Below, in pieces: positions 15,634-32,351 of a stretch of 34,184 bases of DNA. Under the pieces are notes generated by a model. The model saw only the letters and a program-made list of their open reading frames with translations. It was not told the origin of the DNA and did no database searches. The DNA is taken from the NCBI GenBank assembly GCA_026991395.1, contig JALXBP010000084.1:20221-54404 (forward strand), given 5' to 3'. The translations under genes and the position numbers were made by a program. Numbering within the stretch: position 1 is the stretch's first letter; every line of letters starts with the position of its first letter. The stretch is from Anaerolineae bacterium. GTDB lineage: Bacteria > Chloroflexota > Anaerolineae > B4-G1 > SLSP01.

Positions 15634-15659
15634 TATTGGCTGCAGAAGGGGTTTTAGGC
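15634..15659 (-). other. Truncated attC-like half site downstream of the HEPN-like gene
   Basis: Minus strand GCCTAAAACCCCTTCTGCAGCC, 8 nt after the TGA. It shares TCTGCAGC with the stem of the 29930-30038 site. No matching right half was found before the nrdJ terminator. Confidence 0.3.
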
Positions 15660-15667
15660 AGAATCTA

Positions 15668-16279
15668 TCACGGATATTGTACAGCTATGTAAGCCATCTG
15701 CCGTAATTGGATTACCCATATTTCAAACAATGCAACACCGGAAGGCAATTGAGGCTGGCTCGCCCAATCTATCGGTCGCGCTTGTGCTGCCATCCCGATG
15801 GAGCGAGCAATACTCCTAACATGTTTAGCAGTTGTAGCATTGCGATGCGCAAAGAAGTTTCGCATTCGGCGTAAGTCATCCACCGGTGATGGTGTCATGC
15901 CGAGTCCTCCGCTGACATTTAGAAAATTCGTGATACTGAGTCTTTGGGCTGCACTGATACTCTCATTGGCATCCGCCCAACGAGGTTCACGCCTACCCCC
16001 TTTACGGGTTTTGATCTTAGCCCTACTAATAGCATCACCCCTTGAGCGAATATCTGGTGCTTTAGGGACAATCACGCCGTTAATTGAATAGGGACGAGCA
16101 TAACTTGAAATAATAATCAGTTCCCTACAAAATCTCGCCCAAGCGTCATGCAATCTTATCACACTCATTTCCCTCGCTTGCACGGGGCAGATTGCACTAT
16201 GCGCATTGTTAAAGCAATGTAGCAATACCGCCGTTTCCATGACGAAACGGCGATACAGTTTTCCCAAGTCTTTCAGCAT
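15668..16279 (-). CDS. Uncharacterised protein with HEPN-like Rx4H motif
   Basis: RRMRNFFAHRN (R140-N-F-F-A-H145) matches the HEPN Rx4-6H active-site pattern. Starts 3 nt after the DUF262 stop. Confidence 0.55.
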   Translation of the reverse strand: MLKDLGKLYRRFVMETAVLLHCFNNAHSAICPVQAREMSVIRLHDAWARFCRELIIISSYARPYSINGVIVPKAPDIRSRGDAISRAKIKTRKGGRREPRWADANESISAAQRLSITNFLNVSGGLGMTPSPVDDLRRMRNFFAHRNATTAKHVRSIARSIGMAAQARPIDWASQPQLPSGVALFEIWVIQLRQMAYIAVQYP

Positions 16280-16282
16280 TCT

Positions 16283-17356
16283 TCACAACCGCTGTGGCAA
16301 TAATGCTCGAAAATAAACAGGGAAGCGCTTTCGACGGCTGGCAATACGCTGGGTAGTACCTGACGACGCCATCCAGAACTCTTTCAAATATGCTTCCGAA
16401 GGGGGCTCATCACTCTCCAATATTTGTGACAAGTAGCCTAGATTCTCTATCACCATAGAAATATTGCTGAGAGCGTGAGAACTCCTCGCCGGCATCCTCT
16501 CACCCATTTTCCCTTGGGGAATACCAAACAAGGCATGAGCAACTGCGGCATATAACATCAAGAAATGCGGAGATCTGCTAATTGGGCCATCAAGAGCTAA
16601 GGAAAGATTCCGTACAATAAATTCTATAACCTCATTAACTTTCAAGATCGTTTCTTCCTTGTTGGGGAAATCTTTATCATATTTAACGTACAGCTTTCTG
16701 ATATTGCGTTGTCCCCCATCAGTAACCCCTTCCAAAATCACTCCAAACATTTCTGCCATTAACGAATCGTCCAACATCCTCACACGTTGGCGCATAGAGA
16801 GAATCGAAAATCTTTCCCATAAGTCCTTACCCCATTGCATAGATGTATCATGCACCGCCCATTTGAAATCACCCTGAAATTCCGCATGGCGCAACTCAGC
16901 ATCGTTAAGTCGCACGTTATATGAATTCAATCGTGAGAATATTTCTAATACCTCCTCATCTGACGCATTGATTAGAAGTTCAACTGCCACAGTGTAGGAT
17001 AAAAAATGCTCTTGGATATCTTCCGAGAGAGTACTGTATCTATACCCTCTAAACTCCTTAGCTCTGCTTCCCAAGATCAGCTTGTCATCGGCAAACTCAA
17101 TAATTGCACGCAACCTCTGCTGCCCATCTACCACTTCACGGTATGATTTCTTAGTTCTCAAATCAATGCGAGAACGTATGTAGATTTTAGGTATGGGGTA
17201 ATTTCTTAGAATAGTATCTATCAGGTAAGACTTAGCAGCTTGCGTCCACACACTCCGGCGCTGAAAATCAGGATTTAGCTTAAGCTGTTTTTTTCTATGC
17301 CATTCAAGGAAGTCCGCAATAGTATATTGCTGAAGGTTTGATGTGGCCATTTTCAT
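16283..17356 (-). CDS. DUF262 (ParB-like/GmrSD-type) domain protein
   Basis: TIADFLEWHRKKQLKLNPDFQRRSVWTQAAKSYLIDTILRNYPIPKIYI...REVVDGQQRLRAIIEF is characteristic of DUF262. Alternative start at 17350. Confidence 0.9.
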   Translation of the reverse strand: MKMATSNLQQYTIADFLEWHRKKQLKLNPDFQRRSVWTQAAKSYLIDTILRNYPIPKIYIRSRIDLRTKKSYREVVDGQQRLRAIIEFADDKLILGSRAKEFRGYRYSTLSEDIQEHFLSYTVAVELLINASDEEVLEIFSRLNSYNVRLNDAELRHAEFQGDFKWAVHDTSMQWGKDLWERFSILSMRQRVRMLDDSLMAEMFGVILEGVTDGGQRNIRKLYVKYDKDFPNKEETILKVNEVIEFIVRNLSLALDGPISRSPHFLMLYAAVAHALFGIPQGKMGERMPARSSHALSNISMVIENLGYLSQILESDEPPSEAYLKEFWMASSGTTQRIASRRKRFPVYFRALLPQRL

Positions 17357-17388
17357 GCACCTCTTGAAATCCGATTTCTCAAAAGCCT

Positions 17389-17535
17389 GTCTAACAACAA
17401 CGTCAGTGAAGCTGCAACGCTACCACGGACATTATTGGCGACATATCTTTCTCGCAGGAGCCCCACTAGACTCACGAGAAGTACATCCGCCGGATGCAAG
17501 ACTAGACATTTTCTGCAGCTTTGCCCTAATTGGGC
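17389..17535 (-). other. attC-like recombination site between the PRTase and DUF262 genes
   Basis: Minus strand: GCCCAAT (RYYYAAC-like, one mismatch) ... TGTTGTTAGACAGGC (GTTAGAC = GTTRRRY). Arms TGCAGCTT/AAGCTGCA (17514-17521/17409-17416) and an inner TTCTCG/CGAGAA pairing. The right end GACGTTGTTGTTAGACAGGC closely matches GACGCTATTGTTAGGCAGGC at the 29.9-kb site. Confidence 0.55.
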
Positions 17536-18122
17536 TTGCGCGAATCTCGAACATAGCCATATCCCTTGTACATCCAAGGCATACGGAAATCCCCGGTAAT
17601 CTCTTTACCAAAATAATCTGGGCGATATGCAGAGGTAACCCCCTTTACAAAGCAAGCCGTCCGTATCTCTTGAGGATTTACTTGCTCAATTTCATGGAGA
17701 AAGAATTTCATTGTTCCTCCAGTAAGAACATCGCCAGCCACTAATAGTACCTTTTTCCCTCTGAGTGGGGCAAAGTCGATCATTCTGTTTTCCACTTCTA
17801 TCCGTTCCCCATCATGCCATTCATACATTCGATCCACACCTAGTAAGGGAATATTTCGCATCTTGTCCGGTACCCGTAAGTTTCCTGACAATAAGGCCCC
17901 AAGGATTGAACCACCTCGACCAATTCCCACAATCACGTCTGGAACAAACATATCACTGCTCATCTGGGAGATTAATTTCTTCACCAATTTATCCACCTCC
18001 GCCCAGCTAAAACTCCGCAGGTTAAGCCACACCTCTGCCGTTTTATACAAAGTGGCTAAAAAGCCAACAAATGCCAACGCATAACTCGCAATGTCGAAAA
18101 GGTTTTTTACATCCATTGTCAT
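17526..18122 (-). CDS. Membrane-anchored phosphoribosyltransferase-like protein
   Basis: N-terminal hydrophobic helix (IASYALAFVGFLATLYKTAEV), then VIVGIGRGGSILGALLSG and VLLVAGDVLTGGT (PRPP-loop-like). Confidence 0.75.
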   Translation of the reverse strand: MTMDVKNLFDIASYALAFVGFLATLYKTAEVWLNLRSFSWAEVDKLVKKLISQMSSDMFVPDVIVGIGRGGSILGALLSGNLRVPDKMRNIPLLGVDRMYEWHDGERIEVENRMIDFAPLRGKKVLLVAGDVLTGGTMKFFLHEIEQVNPQEIRTACFVKGVTSAYRPDYFGKEITGDFRMPWMYKGYGYVRDSRKPN

Positions 18123-18721
18123 CGCCCCACCAAAAACCCTAACTCCATATTGAGAGATTGCAGTTGTAAGTCACCCTCTTCCTTGAATAATAGTGTTGTC
18201 ACGCTGCAATTTGAACAAGGTAATAAACGGAACTTATTCAAGTCAAGTCCAAGAACTTGAGCAACTATTAGTCGGATAGTTGTGCGGTGAGAAACGCAAG
18301 CAACACTGCGAACTGATGTTTTCTGAGCAATAAACAGTATTTCATCATATACCTCCAATGCATGTTTCCGTATGCTTTTACCACCTGGGAAAGTCACCTC
18401 CCCTGGTGCAGTATGCCAACGCCGCATCACCTCATCGTCATATGTACGGGGTACTCCCTCATAATTTCCATAATCGAATTCAATTAATCCTTCAGTTATA
18501 ATTATCTCATGTTGTGGGAAAATAATCTTTGCGCTCTCAAGTGCACGGGACAATGGACTCGCAAACACTGCTTCTACAGGGAATTTAGAGAAAAATTCTC
18601 TAAGTCGATAGCATTGTTCCCTTCCAGTCTGAGATAAAGGAACATCACTCACTCCAGAAAGCAGATTTTTTTGGTTCTGCACACTTTCACCATGCCTAAT
18701 CAAATAAAGGCGCTTCATCAA
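18119..18721 (-). CDS. Histidine phosphatase (phosphoglycerate mutase-like) family protein
   Basis: LYLIRHGESVQNQ, VFASPLSRALESAKII, VACVSHRTTIRLIV. ATGA overlap (4 nt) with the downstream PRTase. Confidence 0.9.
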   Translation of the reverse strand: MMKRLYLIRHGESVQNQKNLLSGVSDVPLSQTGREQCYRLREFFSKFPVEAVFASPLSRALESAKIIFPQHEIIITEGLIEFDYGNYEGVPRTYDDEVMRRWHTAPGEVTFPGGKSIRKHALEVYDEILFIAQKTSVRSVACVSHRTTIRLIVAQVLGLDLNKFRLLPCSNCSVTTLLFKEEGDLQLQSLNMELGFLVGR

Positions 18722-18945
18722 ATCTTACCCCCGAAATGAATACAGAGAAACCCATACTAGTGCGACGCGTAAGCACCAAGCACCAGAGCGTCACGGATAC
18801 ACACAGAGGCCCATTCCATTATGCAGCATAACTTCTACATAACGCCTTCCCCTTTGAAACCATATGCGACTCCTCCCTTGCCCTTGAAACATCCCGGCTA
18901 CACCTCCATCACCGATGATCCTTCATTACCCTACGCTTCAAGCAA

Positions 18946-18974
18946 AATATATCCTATCTTGAGAATAGTGTCAA
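18946..18974 (-). promoter_or_regulatory. Pc-like promoter of array 1
   Basis: Minus strand TTGACA-N17-TATATT in CTTGACACTATTCTCAAGATAGGATATATTTTGCTTG. Near-identical copy at 30992-31020. Confidence 0.75.
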
Positions 18975-19070
18975 GAACGAGATACGTGCCCACCAATCCG
19001 GGGAACGGCTCAGCCTGAGAGGGCAGAGGAAGGTGTCGCCGAGGTGCAGGCATTGGAGGATTCATTGACC

Positions 19071-19102
19071 GAGGACGGGCACCATAGCGGCAACCCGTCC
19101 TC
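19071..19102 (-). terminator. Hairpin downstream of greA
   Basis: GAGGACGGG / CCCGTCCTC 9-bp perfect stem with a 14-nt loop. A second weaker hairpin directly follows the greA stop (19142-19160). Confidence 0.45.
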
Positions 19103-19160
19103 CGGCGATGGATCGAATCAGTCGGCGAGGTGATAGCTCACGAGGGGCGTCAGCCCCCTC

Positions 19161-19637
19161 TCATCTCACCTCGAGGATGCGGAATCGGAGCACGCCTATC
19201 GGCGCGTGGTATTCGACGATCTCCCCTTCGCGATGACCGAGGAGCGCTTTGCCCAACGGCGATTCGTAGGAGATCTTCCCCTTGCTCGGCTCGGCCTCCG
19301 TCGGGCCGACGATGACGTACTCCTCGACCTCGCTCTCGTCCATCCCCTCCTCCAGCAGCCGGACACGCGACCCCATATCGATGCGGCCGTTGCCCCGTGG
19401 CTTGCGGATGATCTGCGCATTGCGGATCATCGCCTGCAACTGCTGGATGCGGCCTTCGAGGAAGCCCTGCTCCTCCTTCGCCGCGATGTAGTCCGCGTTC
19501 TCGGAAAGATCGCCCTGCTTGATGGCCGCATGCAGCCGCCTGGCCAGCGCCGGGCGCTTGACGTTGATCAGTTCATCCAGTTCGGCCTTCAGGGCCTCCA
19601 AGCCCTCCTCGGTCAGATAGACAGGCTTGTCGTTCAT
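19161..19637 (-). CDS. greA: Transcription elongation factor GreA
   Basis: MNDKPVYLTEEGLEALKAELDELINVKRPALARRLHAAIKQGDLSENADYIAAKEEQGFLEGRIQQL...; RBS GGAGGTG before the ATG at 19637. Confidence 0.94.
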   Translation of the reverse strand: MNDKPVYLTEEGLEALKAELDELINVKRPALARRLHAAIKQGDLSENADYIAAKEEQGFLEGRIQQLQAMIRNAQIIRKPRGNGRIDMGSRVRLLEEGMDESEVEEYVIVGPTEAEPSKGKISYESPLGKALLGHREGEIVEYHAPIGVLRFRILEVR

Positions 19638-19664
19638 CTTCACCTCCTCCGCTATTGCTGGCCT

Positions 19665-19692
19665 ATTGTAACACGGATGAGATGCGGGACAA
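19665..19692 (-). promoter_or_regulatory. Probable greA promoter
   Basis: Minus strand TTGTCC-N16-TACAAT, 28 nt upstream of the greA ATG. Confidence 0.5.
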
Positions 19693-19797
19693 TCCTCGTT
19701 GCCCGCGCCGGGTACAGGAACGGCCTTCCCGCCTCCAGCGTCCATAGTATAATGACGCCGACGGCGAATCGTCACGTCGTATATCCAGGCAACGAAG

Positions 19798-19818
19798 GCG
19801 GTTGGCCGGGCCAACCGC
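19798..19818. repeat. Near-perfect 21-bp palindrome in the greA/rseP intergenic region
   Basis: GCGGTTGGCC-G-GGCCAACCGC, 24 nt upstream of the rseP-like GTG start. Confidence 0.85.
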
Positions 19819-19841
19819 TCGCTCGAACAAGGGAGGTCTGC

Positions 19842-21044
19842 GTGTCCACCTTACTGGCCCATCTCAATCCGGCTCTCGGTGCATTGCTCAGTTTCCTGCT
19901 GGGCCTGGTGCCGCTCATCGCCCTGCACGAGGCAGGGCATATGCTGATTGCGAAGAAAGTCGGCGTCTGGGTGCGCGAGTTCGGCATCGGATTGCCGCCG
20001 CGCATCACCACCCTCTTCCACTGGAACGAGACGGCCTTCACACTCAACTGGATTCCGCTGGGCGGCTTTGCGCGGATGGAGGGAGAGGAAGAAATCCTCG
20101 CCGACGAGCAGACGAAGGAAAAGGAAGCCCGGCGGCGCGCCACCCTCCCGCCGGAGGAGCAGGCCAGGCTGGCCGCAGAAGACGAGGAGCGCCGCAAGCA
20201 CAGCCTCTACGCGCAGCCTCCTGCCAAGCGCATCCTCATCTACCTCGGCGGGCCGATGATGAACCTCCTGCTCGGCTGGCTGCTCGCCATCCTCCTCTTC
20301 GCCAGCGGGACGCCGGTTATCGACAAGGGCGTCGTCTATGTCGAGATGGTCTCCCCCGGCTCACCCGCCGAGGCCGTCGGCCTGCAGGCCGGCGATCTCA
20401 TCCTCGAGGCCGCAGGAGAACCGCTGGAGAGCGTGGAAGCCTGCATCGAGGTCATCCATCGGCACGCCGGAGAGCCGCTCCCGCTGGAGATTCAGCGCGG
20501 CGAAACAACCTTCGTCGTCACGCCCACGCTGCGCACCGAAGCGCCCAAGGGCCAGGGCATCCTCGGCGTCGCCATCAGCGAGATGCCGCTGGCATCGCAC
20601 ATCGAACGGATGCCGCTCGGCCAGGCCATCGTCACTGGCAGCCGCTACTTCGGCGGGCTGGTCGTGGGGCTGATGATGCTCCCCGTCAACCTGGTGCGCG
20701 GCCTCTTCCCGGCCAGCGCCGCCCGCCCGATCAGCGTCATCAACATCAGCCGCATCACCTACCAGAGCGTGCAAGCCAGCGTCGATGTCGGGGCGCTCTA
20801 CCCCATCCTCAGCCTGCTGGTGATGCTCAACGTCAGCCTGGGCCTCTTCAACCTCCTCCCCATCCCCGCGCTGGACGGCGGGCGCATCCTGCTCACGCTC
20901 GTCGAGATGGTCAGCCGCAAACCGCTGACCCCGCGGCAGCAGGAACGGGTCCACCAGGTGGCGATGTTCTTCCTCCTCCTCTTCTTCCTGGGAACCCTCG
21001 TCCTCGACCTGCTCTACCCCGTCAATCTGCCGGGTGCTCCCTGA
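19842..21044 (+). CDS. rseP: M50 site-2 protease (RseP-like) with PDZ domain
   Basis: HEAGH zinc motif, EFGIGLPPRI, PLGGFARMEGE, PDZ region GSPAEAVGLQAGDLILEAAGEPL, NLLPIPALDGGRIL. GTG start at 19842 with GGGAGG RBS. Confidence 0.93.
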   Translation: MSTLLAHLNPALGALLSFLLGLVPLIALHEAGHMLIAKKVGVWVREFGIGLPPRITTLFHWNETAFTLNWIPLGGFARMEGEEEILADEQTKEKEARRRATLPPEEQARLAAEDEERRKHSLYAQPPAKRILIYLGGPMMNLLLGWLLAILLFASGTPVIDKGVVYVEMVSPGSPAEAVGLQAGDLILEAAGEPLESVEACIEVIHRHAGEPLPLEIQRGETTFVVTPTLRTEAPKGQGILGVAISEMPLASHIERMPLGQAIVTGSRYFGGLVVGLMMLPVNLVRGLFPASAARPISVINISRITYQSVQASVDVGALYPILSLLVMLNVSLGLFNLLPIPALDGGRILLTLVEMVSRKPLTPRQQERVHQVAMFFLLLFFLGTLVLDLLYPVNLPGAP

Positions 21045-21065
21045 GGCGCGGCAGGAGGGTTCGCT

Positions 21066-22049
21066 ATGGACGAGAGGAAACGCGAGCGCCTGGAACGGCT
21101 CTGGCACGCCCTGGAGCGGGGCGAGATGCCTTACGAAGGCGACATCACCGCGCTCAGCGATCTCTCCGGCGAGGCGCTGGCACGGACGGCGCGGCTCTGG
21201 CGCGAGGCACCGGAGCAGGTGCGCCGCCATCTGGCCCACCAACTGGCCGTCATCACCCCCTTCACGCCGGAGTACAGCTTCCTCGACCTCTTCCGGATGA
21301 TGCTCGACGACCCCGACCCCCGCGTCGTCGAGGCGGCGCTGCGCGGCTTGGCGGATGAGGAAGCCGACGATTACCGGCTCGTCGAACCGCTCGTCAAGCT
21401 CCTGCGCGGCCACACCGCCGAGGCGGTACGCGCCGCCGCCGCCCGCACGCTCGCCTACCTGATGGCGATGGGCCTGGAGGGGAAGCTGCCCGAAGCACGC
21501 TACCATCAGGCAGAAGAGGCGCTCCTGGCCGCCCACCGCGATGCCGGGGAGAGCGTCGAAGTGCGGCGTCGCGCCCTGGAAGCCGTCGCCGTCGCGGGCG
21601 GCGATGTGATCGCGGCGCTGATCGAGCGCGCCTACCGCGCGGAGGAACCGGCGATGCGCATCAGCGCGCTCTACGCGATGGGCGCGCACGGCGACAAACA
21701 GCGCTGGCAGCGTCCGGTGATGCGTGCCCTCTACAGCAGCGATCCGGAGGTGCGCTACGAGGCCGCCGTCGCCAGCGGCAAGCTCGACCTCGACGAGGCG
21801 GTGCCGGCCCTCCTCGATCTGACGGATGACGTGGACGAGGAGGTGCGCCAGGCAGCCATCCTCGCCCTCGGTACGATCGCCAGCAGCGAGGCCATCCGCG
21901 AACGGCTCCTCACCCTCCTCGACGACGAGAGCGAGGTCATCCGCGAGGTGGCGGAGGAGGCGCTGGCCCTCTTCGAGACCTTCCACCCCGATGCCGAGCG
22001 GTTGAAGCGGCTGGCCGAGTGGCTTCCCCCCGACAAGGAGCAAGGATAA
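21066..22049 (+). CDS. HEAT-repeat protein
   Basis: Repeated helical units: DPDPRVVEAALRGLADEEAD, DDVDEEVRQAAILALGTIASSEA, DDESEVIREVAEEALALFE. Confidence 0.85.
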   Translation: MDERKRERLERLWHALERGEMPYEGDITALSDLSGEALARTARLWREAPEQVRRHLAHQLAVITPFTPEYSFLDLFRMMLDDPDPRVVEAALRGLADEEADDYRLVEPLVKLLRGHTAEAVRAAAARTLAYLMAMGLEGKLPEARYHQAEEALLAAHRDAGESVEVRRRALEAVAVAGGDVIAALIERAYRAEEPAMRISALYAMGAHGDKQRWQRPVMRALYSSDPEVRYEAAVASGKLDLDEAVPALLDLTDDVDEEVRQAAILALGTIASSEAIRERLLTLLDDESEVIREVAEEALALFETFHPDAERLKRLAEWLPPDKEQG

Positions 22050-22050
22050 G

Positions 22051-23262
22051 GTGAAACACATTCGTCTCTTCCTGCTGGCCAGTGCGCTCCTGCTCATCCT
22101 CCTGCCCCTTCGCGCCCCGCCCGCCGCCGCCGGAGGCGCAGTCACGACCTACAACTACACCTTCGCCCAGCAGGCGACCTTCACCTTCATTCTCCCGCCC
22201 GGGGAGGCCGCCCGCGAGGTGCAACTCTACCTGCGCATCGACGATCGGCCGATCGAGATGCACAACGTCCCCATCGAGGAGGGGCGGGCCGTCTACCGGC
22301 GCGACCTGCGCACCCACCCCTTCCCGCCCTTCGCCCCCATCACCTTCTGGTGGAGCTATCCTCTGGCCGGTTCGCCCCAGCAGACGGAGGAGCACTACTT
22401 CCTGTACGAGGACAACCGCTTCAACTGGCACGAGATCGGGAAGGACGGCATCACCGTCAAGTGGGTGGAAGGCGACGAAGCGCTGATGCTCAACGCCCTC
22501 GACATCGCCATCGAGGCACGGGAGACGATCGGGGTCCAACTCCAGTACTCCGCCGTCGAGCCGATGACGCTCTACATCTACCCAAGCCAGGCCGATCTCC
22601 AACTGGCCTTGCTGCTCAGCGGCGAAAGCTGGGTCGGCGGCGAGGCCCGCCCCGAAGTCGGCGTCATTCTCCTGGCCATCCCCCCCACGGAGGAGGCCGC
22701 CCTGCAGATGCAGCGCGACATTCCCCACGAGATGACCCATATGCTCCTCTACCGGCGGCTGGGCGAGAGCGGCTATCACAACCTGCCGGCCTGGCTCAAC
22801 GAGGGGCTGGCAACGCGCTTCGAGCAGCGCCACGATGCCAGTTACGCCGTCGCGCTGGAAAAGGCTCTCTCCGGCGAGACCATCATCCCGCTGAAGACGC
22901 TGTGCCGTCCCTTCTACGACCTGCCCGATGAGCGTGTCCTCCTCGCCTACGCCGAAAGCTACAGCGTCGTAACCTACATCCAGCAGCGTTACGGCTGGTC
23001 GGCCATCCGCGGCCTGCTGAGCGCCTATCAGGACGGGCTGGACTGCTCCAGCGGGGTGCAGCAAGTCCTGGGGAAGGGGATCGGGGAGGTGGAGCGCGAG
23101 TGGCTGACGTGGCTGGGCAACACGCAGGGCGAGGGGGAAAGCGGCGGCACGGCCATCCTCCTGCGCCTCTTCGCCCAGCAACTGGCCCCCTGGCTGCTCC
23201 TGCTGGCGGCACTCAGCACGCCACTCCTCCTCACGCTCCTCGTCCATCCGAAAGGGAGATAG
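22051..23262 (+). CDS. Secreted/anchored metallopeptidase, peptidase_MA-like
   Basis: GTG start with signal peptide; IPHEMTHMLLYRRLGESGYHNLPAWLNEGLATRFE (HExxH plus downstream E); C-terminal TM. Confidence 0.85.
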   Translation: MKHIRLFLLASALLLILLPLRAPPAAAGGAVTTYNYTFAQQATFTFILPPGEAAREVQLYLRIDDRPIEMHNVPIEEGRAVYRRDLRTHPFPPFAPITFWWSYPLAGSPQQTEEHYFLYEDNRFNWHEIGKDGITVKWVEGDEALMLNALDIAIEARETIGVQLQYSAVEPMTLYIYPSQADLQLALLLSGESWVGGEARPEVGVILLAIPPTEEAALQMQRDIPHEMTHMLLYRRLGESGYHNLPAWLNEGLATRFEQRHDASYAVALEKALSGETIIPLKTLCRPFYDLPDERVLLAYAESYSVVTYIQQRYGWSAIRGLLSAYQDGLDCSSGVQQVLGKGIGEVEREWLTWLGNTQGEGESGGTAILLRLFAQQLAPWLLLLAALSTPLLLTLLVHPKGR

Positions 23263-23269
23263 GCCGGCC

Positions 23270-25150
23270 GTGGCCGCCAGGCAGCGCCGCCGCACCTTCG
23301 CGCCGCTCATCCTCATCCTCTGGGGAGCGATGGTGCTCCGCTTCTACCACCTGGGCTTGCAGTCGTTCTGGAACGACGAGGGCAACGCGGCCCGCCTGGC
23401 GGAGCGGAGCCTCGCCCTCATCGTCAAGGGGGCGGCGATGGACATCCACCCTCCCGGCTACTACCTCCTGCTCCACTTCTGGCAACTCGGCGCGGGGAGG
23501 ACAGAGTTCGCGCTGCGGGCCTTTTCCGCGCTGTGCAGTCTGCTCACCGTGGCCGTCGTCGCCGCGCTGGGGCGCAGCGTGGGCGGGCGGCGCGCAGTTG
23601 CGACCGCGGCGATCCTGATGGCTTGGCACCCGCTGGCCGTGTACTACGCGCAGGAGGCGCGAATGTACGCGCTGCTCGGTCTCCTGGCCGCGCTGACGCT
23701 CTGGGCGGGAGAGCGCCTCCGCTCGCGAGGCGACCGCTCCACGGCGGTGATGCTGGCCGCGCTGCTGACCGCGGGGCTTTACACGCACTACGCCTACCTC
23801 TTCGCGATAGCGGCGCTGAACGGCGCGGCCATCATCGAGGCCCTGCGGCGCAGCACGAGGCGGCCCTTCCCCCGCCGCCTCTGGCTCGCCGCGAACGGCT
23901 TCGCCGCGCTGGCCTTCCTCCCCTGGCTGCCCCACCTGCGCAAGCTGACCACGTGGAAGCCGCCCGACCTGGCCCAGACCGGGGCCTTCACCCACCTGTG
24001 GACGGCGCTCCTCGTCGGCACCACGCATCCCGCGCCGCCCGCGTGGCTCCTTTGGCCTGCCCTGGCGCTCCTCCTCTGGGGCACAGTGCGCGGGATGGGC
24101 CGACGGCCCTTCCTGACCACGGCGGCGCTCCTCCTCGTCCTCCTGCCGCCGCTCCTCTTCCTCGCCACCGGAAGCTACCGCCCGGCCTACCTGAAGTTCC
24201 TGCTCGTCTCGCTCCCCGCGCTGACGGTACTCATCGCCGCCGCGACGGCGGTCAGGACGAGGTGGGCATCGTGGCTCGCCTGCCTCCTCCTGGTCGCGCT
24301 GTTCATCCCCCAAGAGACGGCGCTGGACCATCTCTATCACGACCCCGCCTATCGCCGCACCGACTACCGCGGCATAGCCGCCCTCATCGCCGCCGAGGGA
24401 CGGCCCGGCGATGCCGTCGTGTTGGACGCGCCCAATCAGTGGGAGGTCTTCACCTACTACTACCGCGGCCCGCTGGAGGTCTTCCCCGCGCCCTACCACC
24501 CAGATCCGGCGGAGGCGCAGGCTTGGCTCGCCACGCTCCTCGACGGGCATGAGCGGCTCTTCGTCCTCTACTGGGGAGAGCGGGAGGCCGATCCCCAAGG
24601 CTACATCGAGCGCGGCCTGGCCGAGCGGAGCTACAAGGCGGGGGAAAGCTGGATCGGCGAGGTGCGCCTGGCCCGCTACGGCGTCGCGCCGCTGCCGGAG
24701 GAGCCGACCCGTCCGCTGGAGGCGACCTTCGGCTCCGCCATCCGCCTGGAGGGCACGGCCATCGGCGGCGAATGCTTCCGCGGCGGGGAGATCATCCCCA
24801 TCTCCCTCTTCTGGCGGGCGACGGCGAAACCGGCGACACGCTACAAGCTCTTCGTCCACCTCCTGGACGCGGCGGGGAACCTCGTCGCCCAGTACGACGG
24901 CGAACCGGTCGGCGGCTTCCGACCGACGGATGGCTGGGAGCCGGAGGAGCGTCTCATCGATCGCTGCGGCCTTCTCCTCCCCGCCTCGCTCCCCCCCGGA
25001 CGGTACCGTCTGCGCCTGGGCCTCTACGACGCCGCGGGGACACGGCTCCCCGTCCGCAGCGGGGGTGAGGTGGACGACGGCGTGCTATTCGCGACTTTGG
25101 AGCTTCCCTGTCACGACGCCCAGGGGGTGAGCAGCCGAGCCGGGCAGTGA
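23270..25150 (+). CDS. GT39/ArnT-like membrane glycosyltransferase; C-terminus reads into island DNA
   Basis: RFYHLGLQSFWNDEGNAARLAERS...DIHPPGYYLLLHFW, many TM segments. The last codons (GVSSRAGQ*) are encoded by the 25128-25162 repeat. Confidence 0.85.
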   Translation: MAARQRRRTFAPLILILWGAMVLRFYHLGLQSFWNDEGNAARLAERSLALIVKGAAMDIHPPGYYLLLHFWQLGAGRTEFALRAFSALCSLLTVAVVAALGRSVGGRRAVATAAILMAWHPLAVYYAQEARMYALLGLLAALTLWAGERLRSRGDRSTAVMLAALLTAGLYTHYAYLFAIAALNGAAIIEALRRSTRRPFPRRLWLAANGFAALAFLPWLPHLRKLTTWKPPDLAQTGAFTHLWTALLVGTTHPAPPAWLLWPALALLLWGTVRGMGRRPFLTTAALLLVLLPPLLFLATGSYRPAYLKFLLVSLPALTVLIAAATAVRTRWASWLACLLLVALFIPQETALDHLYHDPAYRRTDYRGIAALIAAEGRPGDAVVLDAPNQWEVFTYYYRGPLEVFPAPYHPDPAEAQAWLATLLDGHERLFVLYWGEREADPQGYIERGLAERSYKAGESWIGEVRLARYGVAPLPEEPTRPLEATFGSAIRLEGTAIGGECFRGGEIIPISLFWRATAKPATRYKLFVHLLDAAGNLVAQYDGEPVGGFRPTDGWEPEERLIDRCGLLLPASLPPGRYRLRLGLYDAAGTRLPVRSGGEVDDGVLFATLELPCHDAQGVSSRAGQ

Positions 25151-25162
25151 GCGGAGCGAAGG
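25128..25162 (-). repeat. Cassette-boundary repeat, copy A (attC-like half)
   Basis: tgagcagccgagccgggcagtgagcggagcgaagg matches 27648-27682 with one mismatch in 35 bp. Confidence 0.8.
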
Positions 25163-25266
25163 TGTTGGCTCAAGGGAAGAGCAGCGTGTCGGCTGGAAGC
25201 GCTTGTCGGGCAACGCTCTCGACTACACGAGCCAAGCATATCGCAGCGTACTACCTTTAAAACGAA

Positions 25267-27600
25267 TCACCTGGTAATCATGGGCAAGTAATTCTTATAT
25301 TGATATATCGAAGGCTTGGCACACCAGTCGAATTCGACAAAATCAAAATCGGCCTGAAGTGGGTTATCCTGCCATTCGTTTATCAGGTGAACACCAGCAT
25401 AGAGAGTATTGGCCGCGCTGAAATGAACATCCCCTACTTGGATCCAATCCGTACCAGTCCGACTATACCAAGCAGTGAAGCTGTTGTTATCTCGCTCGAA
25501 TCTGAGATACACATCAGAAGCAGAAAGTATAATATCTCCACTATCTGTATATGTACCACTAACACGATAAATAAACCGCAGATGCCCACCAGTCTTGAGT
25601 TCTAGCCTGATATAGTTATTTTCGTCTTGCCAGATGAGAAGGCCAGCACCCTGGTATTCATCAGGCACGGGCACAATTCTTACATGGGTTTGAACAACAA
25701 ACCTCCTTCCTACCGGCTGCAAGAGACGAGGAGCATTTAGATTGAGAAACAGATCGTGGCCACTGCCCGGAGTCATTAAGCGCAAGTAACCGGGATTCGC
25801 GGTCAGGCTGTAAGTGGAATCGGCCAACGGATCGACCCACAACCATCGCAAGTCAAGCATGGAAGTGTTGAAAAGATCGCAAAAGCCCGGCGGGAAAAAG
25901 TCGCTATCCCACAAGGTAACATACACTATATCGTCTTTCTCAAAAGTCTCTGCCCAAAGGTTGGCTCGACGATTGACATAGTTGAAGGTCAAGTTTAACC
26001 CTATTCGTCGACCATGCTGCAGAATCAGTCCAGTTTGGGAATTGTACGGAATGGCTATTTGGACAAGGTAGCCACTGCCGTAACTACGTGCATATCGACC
26101 AATGTCTGACTCCGTAATAAGTCTTCCAAACGGGTAGTTAGGGTCATCATCCCACATCGGATAGCCCTTGGTGGCAATGATGGTTTCACTGCTATCCCAA
26201 ATATGTGCCTTGCCTATAATCAAAGGGGCAGTTGGGTCTGAATAACTTGGGTCTATGTTGATCTCATAGTTATCTTTGCCGTGAAACCATCCATCAGCGT
26301 TGGCGTCAATCATAAGATGTATTTCCGCAAACCTATCAACCTGTATCATCAGGTAGAGATAGTTGCTATCCCAGTTGGCGTATACTGTGGAGGAAAAAGG
26401 CGCGTTTGCAGCATTGACACCGCTAATGAGTATATCCCAACCGGCAGGGTCCCCATTGAGCGGCAAGGTCTTCTCTGACATCTGTGTATTGATGCGATAC
26501 AGAGGTTCAAAATCATTGCCGTCCAAAGCTTTATCCCCATCTGTATCAGGAGCAGTCAGATCGGCGTTTCTGAAAAAACCCGCAATACTCTCTTCGAGAT
26601 CTCCATATCCATCTCCATCTGTATCAACAAGAGCTGTTGAACTTCCAAGGGACTGTTCCGTGATGGGCAGAGATGGATTTTGGTCTGGGACACCATCTCC
26701 GTCCGCATCAGGAGCCTGGATAATATCTCCCCAAGGAGGACGTAACACGAGCCAATTATCGGCTGGCCAGATTTTCATTCCATAGGCCCAAAAACTCCAG
26801 TTTTCCCCAAATGCACCTTCCAAATCCCAAGGGCGATCTGGAAAGAAATACTCAGGGTAGCCGCTGTTTTCCAGCATAAAGTCAATAGTATGCTGAATCT
26901 CGTGGGGAAACGCAGTAGAAAATACCTCTGCTCCAGACGGCTGAAATATCGGAATCTCTGTTATGCCGGTGAGACCCAGTTGCCAATAGATGCCCCCACC
27001 CAAGCCTCCATAGGCCGCTGGCAATGAGCCGTTGTTATGTGCCCATAGGTAATTGATGCTATCAAACTGATCCCTCTCGACTCCTCGATTCAACAGATCA
27101 GATTCAACAGATACGCCATCCCCATCATCATCAGTAGGATTCAACCAGTAGCCGCCATTCTGGTGTTGCGTGAACTCAGATGAGTCTTTATAATCATCGA
27201 TAATCATAAAAGTTAGATTAATATAGAATTTAAAATGAGACTGCCGCCAAATGAATCTGGCCGTGTTTGCAACATGCTGTTGAAGGAGATCAATATCACT
27301 TGAGCTTAATGTGCCAGCAGCCGTATTAGGATAAATTACGATAAGAGTGTCGAGCTCAGTGTATGCCGTCGTGCCAGAGGCTGCCTGGTAAGCAGACTGT
27401 GGAACCTGCAAGGGAGGAAATAAATAGGGGTTTCGAATTTCGATATAGCCTTGAGGTTGATCTATGGGAGCGTCAAATACCGCATAGATGTAGGGCGATC
27501 CTGCATTTGGCAGGTTATTTACGCTCGAAGTTGGCGTAACCTGCAAGCCAGTGAATAAGACTAATGCAAAAACTATTCGAAGATATTTGTGACTAAACAT
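25267..27600 (-). CDS. Secreted multidomain protein: HExxH metallopeptidase-like region, Ca-binding TSP3-like repeats, CBM9-like and DUF1349/LamG-like C-terminal regions
   Basis: Signal peptide; AFPHEIQHTIDFML; DADGDGVPDQNP and DTDGDGYGDLEE; VYANWDSNYLYLMIQVDRFAEIHLMIDANADG; LLIWQDENNYIRLELKTGGHLRFIYR. RBS AGGAG before the ATG at 27600 (alternative start 27615). Confidence 0.75.
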   Translation of the reverse strand: MFSHKYLRIVFALVLFTGLQVTPTSSVNNLPNAGSPYIYAVFDAPIDQPQGYIEIRNPYLFPPLQVPQSAYQAASGTTAYTELDTLIVIYPNTAAGTLSSSDIDLLQQHVANTARFIWRQSHFKFYINLTFMIIDDYKDSSEFTQHQNGGYWLNPTDDDGDGVSVESDLLNRGVERDQFDSINYLWAHNNGSLPAAYGGLGGGIYWQLGLTGITEIPIFQPSGAEVFSTAFPHEIQHTIDFMLENSGYPEYFFPDRPWDLEGAFGENWSFWAYGMKIWPADNWLVLRPPWGDIIQAPDADGDGVPDQNPSLPITEQSLGSSTALVDTDGDGYGDLEESIAGFFRNADLTAPDTDGDKALDGNDFEPLYRINTQMSEKTLPLNGDPAGWDILISGVNAANAPFSSTVYANWDSNYLYLMIQVDRFAEIHLMIDANADGWFHGKDNYEINIDPSYSDPTAPLIIGKAHIWDSSETIIATKGYPMWDDDPNYPFGRLITESDIGRYARSYGSGYLVQIAIPYNSQTGLILQHGRRIGLNLTFNYVNRRANLWAETFEKDDIVYVTLWDSDFFPPGFCDLFNTSMLDLRWLWVDPLADSTYSLTANPGYLRLMTPGSGHDLFLNLNAPRLLQPVGRRFVVQTHVRIVPVPDEYQGAGLLIWQDENNYIRLELKTGGHLRFIYRVSGTYTDSGDIILSASDVYLRFERDNNSFTAWYSRTGTDWIQVGDVHFSAANTLYAGVHLINEWQDNPLQADFDFVEFDWCAKPSIYQYKNYLPMITR

Positions 27601-27629
27601 TCTGATACTCCTCATCTGCAGCGATAAGC

Positions 27630-27689
27630 CACCAACGAAGCGGCGGATGAGCAGCCGGGCCGGGCAGTGAGCGGAGCGAAGGGGGTGAC
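27630..27689 (-). other. Degenerate attC-like site upstream of the 27600 gene (contains repeat copy B, 27648-27682)
   Basis: Minus strand ...GCCCGGCCCGGCTGCTCATCCGCCGCTTCGTTGGTGGCTTA aligns with the right half of the 30762-30850 site, GCCCGGCCAGGCCGCTCATCCGCCGCCCTGTTGGGTGGCTTA. Confidence 0.5.
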
Positions 27690-27739
27690 TTAAGGGTCTG
27701 CACCCGTACTGCGCGTCAGCCCACTATGGACGGTTGGTT

Positions 27740-27936
27740 CCGCCACCAATACGGCTGCCCATCTCTCTTCCCCGCTCCCTGCCCGCTATCCAAATCGGAT
27801 ACCGCGCATTAGCACCCCGCGTTACCCGCTGCACCTTCCCCGTCGCCACCTCAGCCAGCCAGATGTCCGGCACGCCTCCCGCATCCGTGCTGAACGCCAG
27901 CCACTTAGAAGGTGTAGTGCTTCGCCGAATACACAA
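27740..27936 (-). pseudogene. Remnant of a TolB/PD40-type beta-propeller protein (C-terminal fragment)
   Basis: KWLAFSTDAGGVPDIWLAEVATGKVQRVTRGANARYPIW is typical of one PD40 repeat, with no surrounding full-length frame. Confidence 0.5.
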
Positions 27937-27945
27937 ACCCTCGGC

Positions 27946-29280
27946 TTATTCCCCAAAGCGCCGGAGGAGTTGGTAGATAGCATTTGCGCCAAAACCGATT
28001 GCTTCAACGGGAATGCGTTCATCTACACCATGGATCACCTGGATGAAATCGAAATCTCTTGGAAGCTGCATCGGCACAAAACCGTAAGTTTGAATCCCCA
28101 AGCGAGCGAAGAAGCGCGCATCGGTAACCCCGCTCATCAAAAAAGGAACTGGAATCCCATCGGGATCGGCCTGACGCAAAATATCAGCCAGCAAATCAAA
28201 GAGGCCCATATCCGGTTCAGCCGGGCCGGGATCATAACGTATGACTTCGATCTCGACATCGTGGCCGACAATGCCGGTTAACTCCGAGATCAAGTCATCG
28301 GGGCTATAACCGGGAAGCAGCCGCCCATCGAGTCCAATAGACACTTCGCCTGGTATGACATTGATTTTGGAGCTTCCGTGCAGGACGGTCGGACTTACCG
28401 TGTTGTGCAAAAGGGGATCAAATGGACGGCTATGTTCCCCCATTGCATCCAGCACCATGTTCGTGAATAGTGGGTTCGTCAATTGACCGAGAACGAGTTT
28501 CTTCACTCCCCCACTTGCCGATGCCACGGCATCGAACATGAGCCGCGCGGCTGGTGTGATATGCACCGGCAGACGATTCTCATCCAACAGCCGAAGGACC
28601 TGAGACAACTTCGCCATCGCTCCTCCACGGACGGGTATTGCCCCGTGTCCACCAGTACCGCGCACTGTCATGTTCAGCCAGCACAATTGTTTCTCCGCAA
28701 TCATAATAGGGTAGAAACGTTGTTTGCCAACATAGAAGGTAAATCCACCGAATTCTCCTATGGCATATTTGATTCCTTCGAACACTTTGGGGTGATTCTC
28801 GACCAGATACCTCGAACCAAAATCGCTGCCTGCCTCCTCGTCGCTGACAATCGCAAGGACTACATCTCCGGGCAATTTCAAGGCATCCCCTTTTGCCCGC
28901 AAAAAGGCAGCCAGCATCATGGCTACTCCGCCCTTCATATCAAGAGCACCACGTCCCCACACAAATCCATCGCTCACTTCACCGGCAAACGGGGGATGCT
29001 GCCATGGCTGATTCTCCGTTGTCACAACGTCTATGTGTCCGTATAGCAATAACGGAGGTGCGTTGCCCATCCCCGGCAATCGTGCGATCAAATTGGGGCG
29101 CTCAGGCGTTTTGCCGAGAATGGTCGTTTTGATCCCGGCTTCGGCCAGCAGGCCGTTGATAAAGGAGATGCATTCAGCCTCGTTGCCAGGCGGATTGGTG
29201 GTATCGAATCGGATAAGGCGCTGGAGCAGCTCTGCGGGGCGCTCATAGATGGCCGACCGGTTGCGTTTATTAGATGTCAA
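27946..29280 (-). CDS. M20 family metallopeptidase (ArgE/DapE-like)
   Basis: PPLLLYGHIDVVTTENQPWQHPPFAGEVSDGFVWGRGALDMKGGVAMMLAAF, SDEEAGSDFGSRYLVENHP. Confidence 0.93.
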   Translation of the reverse strand: MTSNKRNRSAIYERPAELLQRLIRFDTTNPPGNEAECISFINGLLAEAGIKTTILGKTPERPNLIARLPGMGNAPPLLLYGHIDVVTTENQPWQHPPFAGEVSDGFVWGRGALDMKGGVAMMLAAFLRAKGDALKLPGDVVLAIVSDEEAGSDFGSRYLVENHPKVFEGIKYAIGEFGGFTFYVGKQRFYPIMIAEKQLCWLNMTVRGTGGHGAIPVRGGAMAKLSQVLRLLDENRLPVHITPAARLMFDAVASASGGVKKLVLGQLTNPLFTNMVLDAMGEHSRPFDPLLHNTVSPTVLHGSSKINVIPGEVSIGLDGRLLPGYSPDDLISELTGIVGHDVEIEVIRYDPGPAEPDMGLFDLLADILRQADPDGIPVPFLMSGVTDARFFARLGIQTYGFVPMQLPRDFDFIQVIHGVDERIPVEAIGFGANAIYQLLRRFGE

Positions 29281-29305
29281 GGCAACAGCCTCCTTTTTCC
29301 CTCTA

Positions 29306-29878
29306 TCATTCGAGTATTGATACCACCTTAGCCGATGGCATATTCATGACTATTGCCGTAGGCATCTTCAATTGCTTCCAGAACTCAAAGGGGGTTACTC
29401 CTCGTACTACTCGGCTAACATACAAACTCATCACCGTCCCATGCGACACGATGACCATATCGTATCCCGTTCCCTGTTTCCAACAATCTGCTATCGCTTT
29501 CTCTATACGCTCTGATGCTTGCAATGCGGTTTCCAGGCCAAAAACTTTCTCTGTCGGATGTTCATAAAACTTTCGCAACATCTCGTCAAAACCATCTCCT
29601 ACCCAACCTACGTTACGACGATCGTGTTCTCGTAGCCCTTCATGTACAGCAACTGGCACATTGTCCAATTGCGAAGCCAGAATTCTTGCCGTTTCCTGCG
29701 CTTTATTCTCTGGACTCGTAAAAATGATCTTGATTGTATAGGTCTCGAGGTTCTCGGCTAATTGAAGGCACCGCCTCCGTCCTTCATCCGACAAATGCCA
29801 TTGGAAGGAAGGAACGGCGGGATCAACTTCTGGGATCGAATGACGGACAAGGATCAGATTTGACAAGCCGGGCTCCAT
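29306..29878 (-). CDS. Histidine phosphatase family protein (second copy of this family in the window)
   Basis: LILVRHSIPEVDP, IIFTSPENKAQETARILA, MVIVSHGTVMSLYV. Confidence 0.88.
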   Translation of the reverse strand: MEPGLSNLILVRHSIPEVDPAVPSFQWHLSDEGRRRCLQLAENLETYTIKIIFTSPENKAQETARILASQLDNVPVAVHEGLREHDRRNVGWVGDGFDEMLRKFYEHPTEKVFGLETALQASERIEKAIADCWKQGTGYDMVIVSHGTVMSLYVSRVVRGVTPFEFWKQLKMPTAIVMNMPSAKVVSILE

Positions 29879-29929
29879 TATACGATTCTTTCTCCTGTTT
29901 ACACCGGAGAGCGTCTACTGGTACTGCCT

Positions 29930-30038
29930 GCCTAACAATAGCGTCAGCGGCGCGGCGAGTTTGTCCAGAAGCATTGCGGCTCGAAGTCGTCTGGTTGTCC
30001 CACAGCGAAGCTGCTGTCCGCTGCAGACGTGGTTGGGT
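29930..30038 (-). other. attC-like recombination site (best example)
   Basis: 109 bp; minus strand begins ACCCAAC (RYYYAAC) and ends GTTAGGC (GTTRRRY). Inner arms CCGCTgcaGAC/GTCaGCGG and CCAGA/TCTGG. Begins 11 nt after the Abi_C-like stop and ends 51 nt before the next ATG. Confidence 0.65.
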
Positions 30039-30049
30039 GACATCGTTTT

Positions 30050-30745
30050 TTAATCTCCGTCCGCAAAACGTTCTTGGTAGGTTTCCAACAAAAATAATCC
30101 AATTGTCGTCAACGCATTTACAGCAAGCCTAGCATGTCTTCTACCTAGCCGATACTGATGATGCCCTTTTCCATGAAAATCACTGTATTTTGTCCGCAAT
30201 GTTGCTATTCCCGCACCTACGTTCACTAAACCGCCAAGTATGCGTTTGATATCACTGTCAGCATGGTTTTCAGGAGACAATTGCATCTTGCGGAAAACCG
30301 CTTTTTGAAGCGACTGAAGACTCTCGTCTTTAGGGTACGCTTCGTCAAATGAATCAAGGATAGCTTTACAAATGCTCTCTAATGTTGTAGAAGCAAGACC
30401 GATTGCGCTTTCTGGGCGTACATCTACATCTCGTAATGCTTTGTCAAAGTCTCTCTTCGCATGTGCATATGCTGACCCATCCAATAAGCTCCGCAAATGG
30501 ATTGCACCGGTAATTTCACTGGATGGAATATCAAGCCCTAAATCCAGAGCAATTTGCGTGACAATGCTATCATCCACATTACTCAACAACTCTTTCACAT
30601 AAACCCATTTGCTGTGAACCATTGCAGCACCGTCATTCGCAATACCAAAGCCACCAAGATAAACGTTGATGTCTGTGGTTGTCATTGTGCTTTGAAGACG
30701 GCGACCTATTTGATCAATTAGATTGAAGCGGTCTATCTTTCTCAT
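30050..30745 (-). CDS. Abortive-infection family protein (Abi_C-like)
   Basis: SAIGLASTTLESICKAILDSF...RILGGLVNVGAGIATLRTKYSDFHGKGHHQYRLGRRHARLAVNALTTIGLFLLETYQ resembles the abortive-infection C-terminal domain. Confidence 0.8.
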   Translation of the reverse strand: MRKIDRFNLIDQIGRRLQSTMTTTDINVYLGGFGIANDGAAMVHSKWVYVKELLSNVDDSIVTQIALDLGLDIPSSEITGAIHLRSLLDGSAYAHAKRDFDKALRDVDVRPESAIGLASTTLESICKAILDSFDEAYPKDESLQSLQKAVFRKMQLSPENHADSDIKRILGGLVNVGAGIATLRTKYSDFHGKGHHQYRLGRRHARLAVNALTTIGLFLLETYQERFADGD

Positions 30746-30761
30746 ACAACTGAATTAAGCC

Positions 30762-30850
30762 ACCCAACAGGGCGGCGGATGAGCGGCCTGGCCGGGCGGC
30801 GAGCGTAGCGAGCCAAGTCCGGCCAAGTCCGTTCCATCCGCCAGTCAGGC
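30762..30850 (-). other. attC-like recombination site upstream of the Abi_C-like gene
   Basis: 89 bp; minus strand GCCTGAC (one mismatch to RYYYAAC) ... TGTTGGGT (GTTRRRY). Arms CATCCGCC/GGCGGATG (30835-30842/30774-30781) and inner GGCCGG/CCGGCC. Confidence 0.55.
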
Positions 30851-30869
30851 ATTGCTCGCTCCGCTCGCG

Positions 30870-30889
30870 GCAGCCTAACTGTAGGCTGC
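30870..30889. repeat. Perfect short inverted repeat next to the attC-like site
   Basis: GCAGCCTA-ACTG-TAGGCTGC; contains GCCTAAC (plus) / GTTAGGC (minus). Confidence 0.75.
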
Positions 30890-30991
30890 AAATCTGTTCC
30901 ATATACTCCATGACGCAGCACAACTGCCGCATTCGAAACGTCTCGGCAGCGTCGGGTATGCCTCCGACATCTTGCACCACGCCCCAAGCAA

Positions 30992-31020
30992 AATATATCC
31001 TACCTTCAGAAGACTGTCAA
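30992..31020 (-). promoter_or_regulatory. Pc-like promoter of array 2
   Basis: Minus strand TTGACA-N17-TATATT in CTTGACAGTCTTCTGAAGGTAGGATATATTTTGCTTG; near-identical to 18946-18974. Confidence 0.75.
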
Positions 31021-31043
31021 GCAAAACTACGCTATCCCTTCAT

Positions 31044-31247: not shown

Positions 31248-32351
31248 ATGTTCGACGAAGCGTTGCTGCGAGAGTTGGCCGTGCTACAGGCCCGGGGACC
31301 GATCCTCAGCCTCTACCTGGACGTGGACCCGACGCGCAAGAGTCCGGATGAGTACAAGCTGGTGCTGCGCGATCTCCTCCACCAGGTGGAAGGCGAGGCC
31401 GATGCCGAGGACATCGAAGCCGTTCGGCGCTACGTGGAGCTGGAATACGATTGGTCGGGGCGCGGATTGGTCCTCTTCTCCCGACAGGCGGAGCATCTCT
31501 GGTATGCCCTTCCCCTTGCCGTCCCCGTCCGCTCCGGCGTTACGGTGGCGACCAAGCCCTACATCTCCCCCCTGGTGGAACTGGACGGCATCTACGGGCG
31601 CTACGCCGTCGCGATGATCGATCGGCAGGGCGGGCGCTTCTACCTCTTCCAGATGGGCGAGCTAAGCGCGCAGGATGGCTACCTGGGCGAGGAGGTGCGC
31701 GGCTCACGCAAGGGACGCGGCTCCTCGATGGTCGGCATGCGCGGCGGTGCGCCGACCTCCGGTCGCCGCGAGGAGGAGGTCATCCAGCGCAACCTGAAGG
31801 AGACGGCGCAGGCGCTGGAGGAGTTCTGCCGCCTCCACAAGCCCCGTCGACTCCTCGTGGCGGGGACGGAGCACACGGTGGCGCAGTTCGTCGAGGTGCT
31901 GCCGCCCACGCTGCGCCAAATCCTCATCGGCACCTTCAACGCCGATATGGGCGCGGGCGAGGTGGAGGTGCGCCGGGAATCGCTCCGCCTCCTCGCGGAA
32001 CAGCAGGCGGCACGCAAGCAGGCGCTGGTGGAGGCCGTCTTCACGGCGGCGGCCAAAGGCTCCAACGGCGTCATCCGCCTCGACGAGACGCTGAGCGCCG
32101 CCCACGAGGGGCGTATCCAGGTGCTCCTCATCGAGCGCGGCTTCCATCGGCCCGGCTACCGCTGCGATGGCTGCGGCTACCTCACCACCCAGACGCTGGA
32201 GCGCTGCCCCTTCTGCGGCGGCACCTTCCTCGAAATCCCCGATGCCGCCGAGGCGGTCGTCACGCAGGTGGTGGAAAAGGGCGGCACGGTGGAGGTGGTG
32301 GACGACGGCGCGATGGGCGAGGCCCACATCGGGGCGCTCTTGCGCTACTAA
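31248..32351 (+). CDS. Bacterial eRF1-like (baeRF/Vms1-related) protein
   Basis: GPILSLYLDVDPTR..., YAVAMIDRQGGRFYLFQMGEL, CxxC pairs CDGCGYLTTQTLERCPFCGG, C-terminal VEKGGTVEVVDDGAMGEAHIGALLRY. Confidence 0.75.
   Translation: MFDEALLRELAVLQARGPILSLYLDVDPTRKSPDEYKLVLRDLLHQVEGEADAEDIEAVRRYVELEYDWSGRGLVLFSRQAEHLWYALPLAVPVRSGVTVATKPYISPLVELDGIYGRYAVAMIDRQGGRFYLFQMGELSAQDGYLGEEVRGSRKGRGSSMVGMRGGAPTSGRREEEVIQRNLKETAQALEEFCRLHKPRRLLVAGTEHTVAQFVEVLPPTLRQILIGTFNADMGAGEVEVRRESLRLLAEQQAARKQALVEAVFTAAAKGSNGVIRLDETLSAAHEGRIQVLLIERGFHRPGYRCDGCGYLTTQTLERCPFCGGTFLEIPDAAEAVVTQVVEKGGTVEVVDDGAMGEAHIGALLRY

Follow-up and report, generated by a model that had tools for sequence, protein, structure and literature searches.

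The stretch of DNA that we analyzed, the window, comprises 34,184 nucleotides (C84:20221-54404) of a 2.46 Mb metagenome-type assembly (MAG) in 153 contigs. A reading made from the sequence alone had described two AT-richer islands whose clear genes all lie on the minus strand, and both points agree with our data: the GC content of islands A and B is about 0.43-0.54, against 0.61-0.72 in the backbone, and the main genes of both are on the minus strand throughout. Searches with Pfam, PADLOC, and NCBIfam assigned accessory-type functions to these genes, and in neither island did Pfam show a main gene with a phage, conjugation, or transposase function. Rfam gave no match at its gathering thresholds.

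The first gene of island B (main genes on the minus strand) is an Abi_C/AbiJ-like abortive-infection cassette gene at 30050-30745 (Pfam, 74.2 bits; PADLOC AbiJ, 66.6 bits). The next cassette carries a histidine phosphatase gene at 29306-29878 (Pfam, 74.6 bits), followed by genes for an M20-family peptidase at 27946-29280 (Pfam, 111.7 bits; NCBIfam NF005913, 405 bits) and a GH43_C2/DUF1349-type carbohydrate-binding protein at 25267-27615 (Pfam, 59 and 50 bits). The GH43_C2 gene is flanked by an 88% direct repeat, of which one copy (27645-27696) lies upstream and the other (25125-25176, minus strand), at the distal edge of the island, extends into the end of the core gene that flanks it on the plus strand. 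This repeat may have been the entry route of the 2.5 kb GH43_C2 segment.

Island A, likewise on the minus strand, contains a gene of the histidine phosphatase superfamily (His_Phos_1) at 18119-18721 (Pfam, 145 bits), a phosphoribosyltransferase-domain gene at 17526-18122 (Pfam, 49.9 bits), a GmrSD_N (DUF262-type) gene at 16283-17356 (Pfam, 84.3 bits; PADLOC, 115 bits), and a last gene at 15668-16279 that matched nothing in Pfam, PADLOC, or NCBIfam. In PADLOC, the GmrSD_N gene is kin to the defence proteins NsnA and PD-T4-2_A. Anti-phage-related genes of cassette type thus occur in both arrays, the NsnA/PD-T4-2_A-like gene (16283-17356) in A and the AbiJ-like gene (30050-30745) in B. Just 3′ of the last island A gene, at about 15638-15659, we found GCCTAAAACCCCTTCTGCAGCC, which may be all that is left of a truncated attC, namely its left half. 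A ribonucleotide reductase search for an empty island A site returned distant matches only.

The sequence-only reading had proposed that the islands are integrase-less integron cassette arrays inserted in the core backbone, and had cited four attC-type sites. One of these, at 29930-30038 on the minus strand (R′′ ACCCAAC, R′ GTTAGGC), is unambiguous. Its 5′ edge lies 11 nt past the Abi_C stop codon, as had been noted, and its 3′ half recurs elsewhere in the genome. A covariance model (R2) trained on eight sites, this one not among them, recovered it at 47.3 bits, with E=1.1e-11 in the window and 7.4e-10 genome-wide. When nine full sites were aligned and scored for the R, L′′, and L′ pairs, with one unpaired base in L′′, covariation was 0.300, compared to 0.107 for shuffled alignments (0 of 500 as high) and at most 0.115 for slid controls. 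In this alignment 86.5% of cells were paired, a figure that is biased because the structure was drawn from the same nine sites; the 21 cells that changed on both sides are stronger evidence for attC than the cells paired.

Genome-wide, R2 identified 16 sites down to E=1e-5, below which only chance scores remained, and a search of fetched contigs added one, giving a family of 17. No attC match was found in 110 kb of core contigs. The family is conserved in structure and not in sequence, in the form of an R′′/L′′...L′/R′ palindrome. All 17 sites have a same-strand open frame upstream, which ends a median of 11 nt before the site, while only 3 of 17 have one on the opposite strand. Islands on C45, C50, C81, and C133 each contain two or more sites. 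Applied to the intI loci of relatives, the model found nine attC in 7 of 28 loci, every one on the canonical cassette side and pointing away from intI. The site at 29930-30038 is a clear attC, and a chance or REP-like origin is refuted for it.

These results bear on whether the islands could be unrelated genomic islands, such as phage, ICE, or transposon remnants, whose palindromes arose by chance or are REP-like. The GCGGATGAGCGG palindrome family is indeed repeat-like, and the genome contains other tyrosine recombinases. Given the attC covariation, the attC beside genuine intI in relatives, the adjacency to genes in 17 of 17 cases, and main genes devoid of phage, conjugation, and transposase functions, we regard this explanation as highly improbable for the islands as a whole; it may hold for parts of island A.

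The other three cited sites fared less well. The island A candidate at 17389-17535 (minus strand) gave no R2 match even with filters off; its resemblance to attC is confined to a 19-nt 3′ half-site with 3 mismatches, of which the window holds three where 1.1 are expected. It is at best a decayed attC remnant. Similarly, the proposed degenerate attC at 27630-27689 was not matched by the model and proved to be a truncated copy (27632-27679, minus strand; 83% identity over 48 nt) of the palindrome at 30762-30850; it too is a remnant at best. The 30762-30850 palindrome (minus strand) is genuinely repeated, but as an attC it scored only 14.3 bits with R2 (E=0.02), no better than the background of 13.0 bits at 32201. 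Array contigs hold 7 copies, full or partial, among them copies of 88-95% identity in the C45, C50, and C85 arrays, whereas 110 kb of core DNA holds none. The palindrome contains no ORF and has the position expected of a gene-less first cassette, with an attI-like core on one side and the Abi_C gene on the other. The family that it represents, GCGGATGAGCGGCCTGGCC, is present in array contigs C45, C50, C85, and C102 and looks like an ORF-less micro-cassette or a second attC subfamily. In island B a single strong attC is joined by an attC-like palindrome, and island A has no strong site. Counting unambiguous attC only, of which there is one among the four sites cited, neither island alone would reach the two clustered attC that IntegronFinder 2 uses as its default for a CALIN (PMC9024848).

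The sequence-only reading also quoted right ends shared between the islands. The sequences in question belong to the 3′ halves of attC and do not mark the ends of the islands. Those right ends that are actually shared, 18926-18975 and 30972-31021, form an 82% identical promoter stretch of 50 nt, part of what the earlier reading overlooked: the main feature here is a homologous leader that opens both islands. In island A (18740-18974, minus strand) it consists of TTGACA (18974-18969), a 17-nt spacer, and TATATT (18951-18946), and in island B (30873-31020, minus strand) of TTGACA (31020-31015), a 17-nt spacer, and TATATT (30997-30992), followed by an attI-like core. TTGACA-17-TATATT is an 11/12 promoter match and is directed inward in both islands; we predict that it is a strong sigma70-type Pc with a putative transcribed leader 3′ of it. 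The attI-like core of island B, GCCTACA-GTTAGGC at 30886-30873, lies 141 nt downstream of the promoter, and the leader ends in CCTACAGTTAGG, with GTTAGGC as the putative crossover point. In island A the core is degenerate and GTTRGGC is lacking. Island A is more decayed than island B, and it is mainly the leader that assigns it to the integron arrays.

The leader pattern occurs elsewhere in this genome, with five exact matches and one with 3 mismatches, compared to none for the reversed pattern. Similarity searches added leaders at the C45 end (99.5% identical to that at the C45 start) and in C102, and a shorter one in C85. We count eight or nine leaders, which is a lower bound. Every one is directed into a low-GC island, and a model-supported attC lies downstream of all of them except those of C93 and island A. 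On C93, a decayed leader (C93:2391-2426) lies near tRNA-Arg and tRNA-Val genes and is followed by a short ORF and GCGCCTAACTATACCGTTAG; this is probably an array stripped of its cassettes. Contigs C45 and C81 overlap in the assembly: their positions 1-127 are identical, with opposite orientations. The array at the C45 start therefore probably runs on for ~6 kb into C81.

The leaders at the C45 start, C45 end, C50, and C133 carry a core of the type GCCTAAT-TATAA-GTTAGGC and share a common end, CTAATTATA(A/C)GTTAG, after which they diverge, as an attI crossover point predicts. Relative to these four, the island B core is shortened to CCTACAGTTAGGC, and the core is absent from island A. Upstream of genuine intI, a motif of similar form occurs at 8 of 25 loci (1.0 for shuffled sequence). 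Searches for the leader pattern in 98 relatives, in viral contigs, and in 85,000 species genomes detected it in no other genome. Homology to the class 1 attI1 was considered and dropped, as most leaders gave no significant alignment.

At their other end the leaders stop sharply. Among 28 pairs, similarity in the leader body had a median z of 5.2; upstream of the -35 box the median z was -0.17 and the maximum 1.85. CTTGAC forms the 5′ edge that all copies share, with a C preceding TTGAC in each.

As the sequence-only reading had stated, there is no intI in the window. A genome-wide search for an IntI-type tyrosine recombinase found none in the rest of the assembly either: the TIGR02249 cut-off was reached nowhere, and the four tyrosine recombinases present all fall below the IntI cut-off. 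Remnants of intI were also absent near the leaders of this genome (best tblastn E=0.012, spurious). The assembly breaks within the C45, C81, C102, and C133 arrays; with 153 contigs in the MAG and arrays that often run out at the end of a contig, a contig with intI could be missing.

Integrons are common in this class: intI is present in 110 of 397 genomes, and R2 sites in 27 of 50, our genome included. Two relatives were informative. G028, of the same order and in about 30 contigs, has one full-length intI with attI on its contig C27 and three intI-less arrays with related leaders on C10, C17, and C11, each leader heading an attC on the same strand. The intI-attI intergenic region of C27 matches these leaders at 74% over 160 nt (C10), 76% over 127 nt (C17), and 87% over 39 nt (C11), and on C10 the similarity stops exactly at GTTGGGC. 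Broken pieces of intI are retained on C10 and C17, and none on C11. A promoter pair beyond the 3′ end of the G028 intI was set aside for the intI-attI intergenic match. G021, of the same family as our genome, has one full-length intI with the core TCTAATACATAGTTGGGC on its contig C103 and, on other contigs, three intI-less leaders that end in TACTACATAGTTGGGC or close variants and are followed by attC; here the match between the intI-side and remote leaders spans 26 nt only. Repeats in a further genome, G002, showed no leader. In G028 and G021, attI-type leaders are thus found next to intI as well as at remote arrays, which supports duplication of the platform followed by decay of intI.

We conclude, with a probability of about 0.8, that the islands are integron cassette arrays that have no neighboring intI and keep the rest of the platform, presumably having arisen by duplication and intI decay. 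The original proposal of integrase-less cassette arrays in the core backbone is thereby upheld, through the attC model, the 17-site family, its adjacency to genes at 17 of 17 sites, and the attC beside intI in relatives. The CALIN-like label fits in that no intI is nearby; the Pc-attI-type leaders of both islands fall outside it. Integron platforms would have been duplicated or moved within the chromosome, and intI of the duplicated platforms would then have decayed while Pc-attI and cassettes persisted. The cassettes may still be expressed from the predicted Pc, and where a single intI survives, it could recombine the remote arrays in trans. The arrays of our genome would now be immobile, unless the assembly lacks an integrase that serves them.

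Off-target integrase insertion at secondary (attG-type) sites would instead yield ordinary CALINs with no platform of their own. This is a published CALIN route (PMC8618304, PMC12444791), and the arrays do lie at many separate chromosomal places. However, a bare off-target insertion would begin with a cassette, and eight or nine arrays open with a homologous promoter-attI leader; moreover, G028 has leaders similar to its intI-attI intergenic region, two of them accompanied by pieces of intI. We therefore consider this origin improbable.

Decay alone does not explain why the leaders of our genome stop sharply at the -35 box without an intI remnant. One possible explanation is that the leader is a mobile, intI-less module of promoter and attI, which spread by copying to new sites and gathered cassettes there afterwards. 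The common edge at CTTGAC, the lack of upstream similarity in all 28 pairs, and the lack of intI remnants near any leader of our genome fit such a module. However, the constant base at that edge is C, not the G of an integrase crossover, we identified no terminal repeats or target duplications, and the G028 copies with intI remnants indicate that there the unit was the whole platform. Overall this explanation seems unlikely, though less so than off-target insertion.

A more tentative idea, which we put at below even odds, is that this lineage has a distributed integron, in which one intI (or none) serves many scattered attI-Pc platforms, each expressing its own first cassette. That a surviving intI serves the arrays in trans is our inference.

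CALINs are common and spread more widely than intI, with Chloroflexota among the phyla concerned (PMC8618304, PMC9668308), and off-target insertion or the degradation of integrons has been proposed as their origin (PMC9024848, PMC8618304). Like CALINs, the arrays described here consist of attC cassettes without an adjacent intI at several loci per genome (PMC8618304, PMC9668308, PMC9024848); unlike CALINs as described, they open with a homologous Pc-attI-type leader. They resemble a complete sedentary chromosomal integron (intI-attI-Pc-array) in their inward Pc, attI-like core with a GTTRGGC crossover, and attC cassettes, and differ from it in having no adjoining intI and several platforms per genome rather than one. 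One report on Xanthomonas describes loss of intI and, in genomes that have intI at ilvD, CALINs at as many as seven further loci (PMC12444791). Decay of intI with persisting cassettes and remote CALINs are thus common to both cases, whereas the available text of that report describes no homologous attI-Pc leaders at the remote CALINs, as are present here (PMC12444791). Outside class 1, attI is reportedly poorly described and is not detected by IntegronFinder (PMC9024848). In the literature searched, largely open-access papers, no account came up of Pc-attI leaders in multiple copies at arrays that lack intI. CALINs as such are known; the multi-copy attI leaders provisionally look new.

CALINs are usually described by attC alone, and here many have their own promoter and attI-type site, which suggests that integrase-less arrays can stay expressed and receptive to cassettes. 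Since homologous leaders cease to match at attI, the copies of a leader within one genome can be used to locate this site. As G028 holds intact, decayed-intI, and intI-less stages together, the origin of CALINs becomes directly testable. Integron platforms in these bacteria seem to multiply and to shed their integrase, and if the distributed arrangement is true, shuffling could move cassettes between several expressed positions simultaneously.
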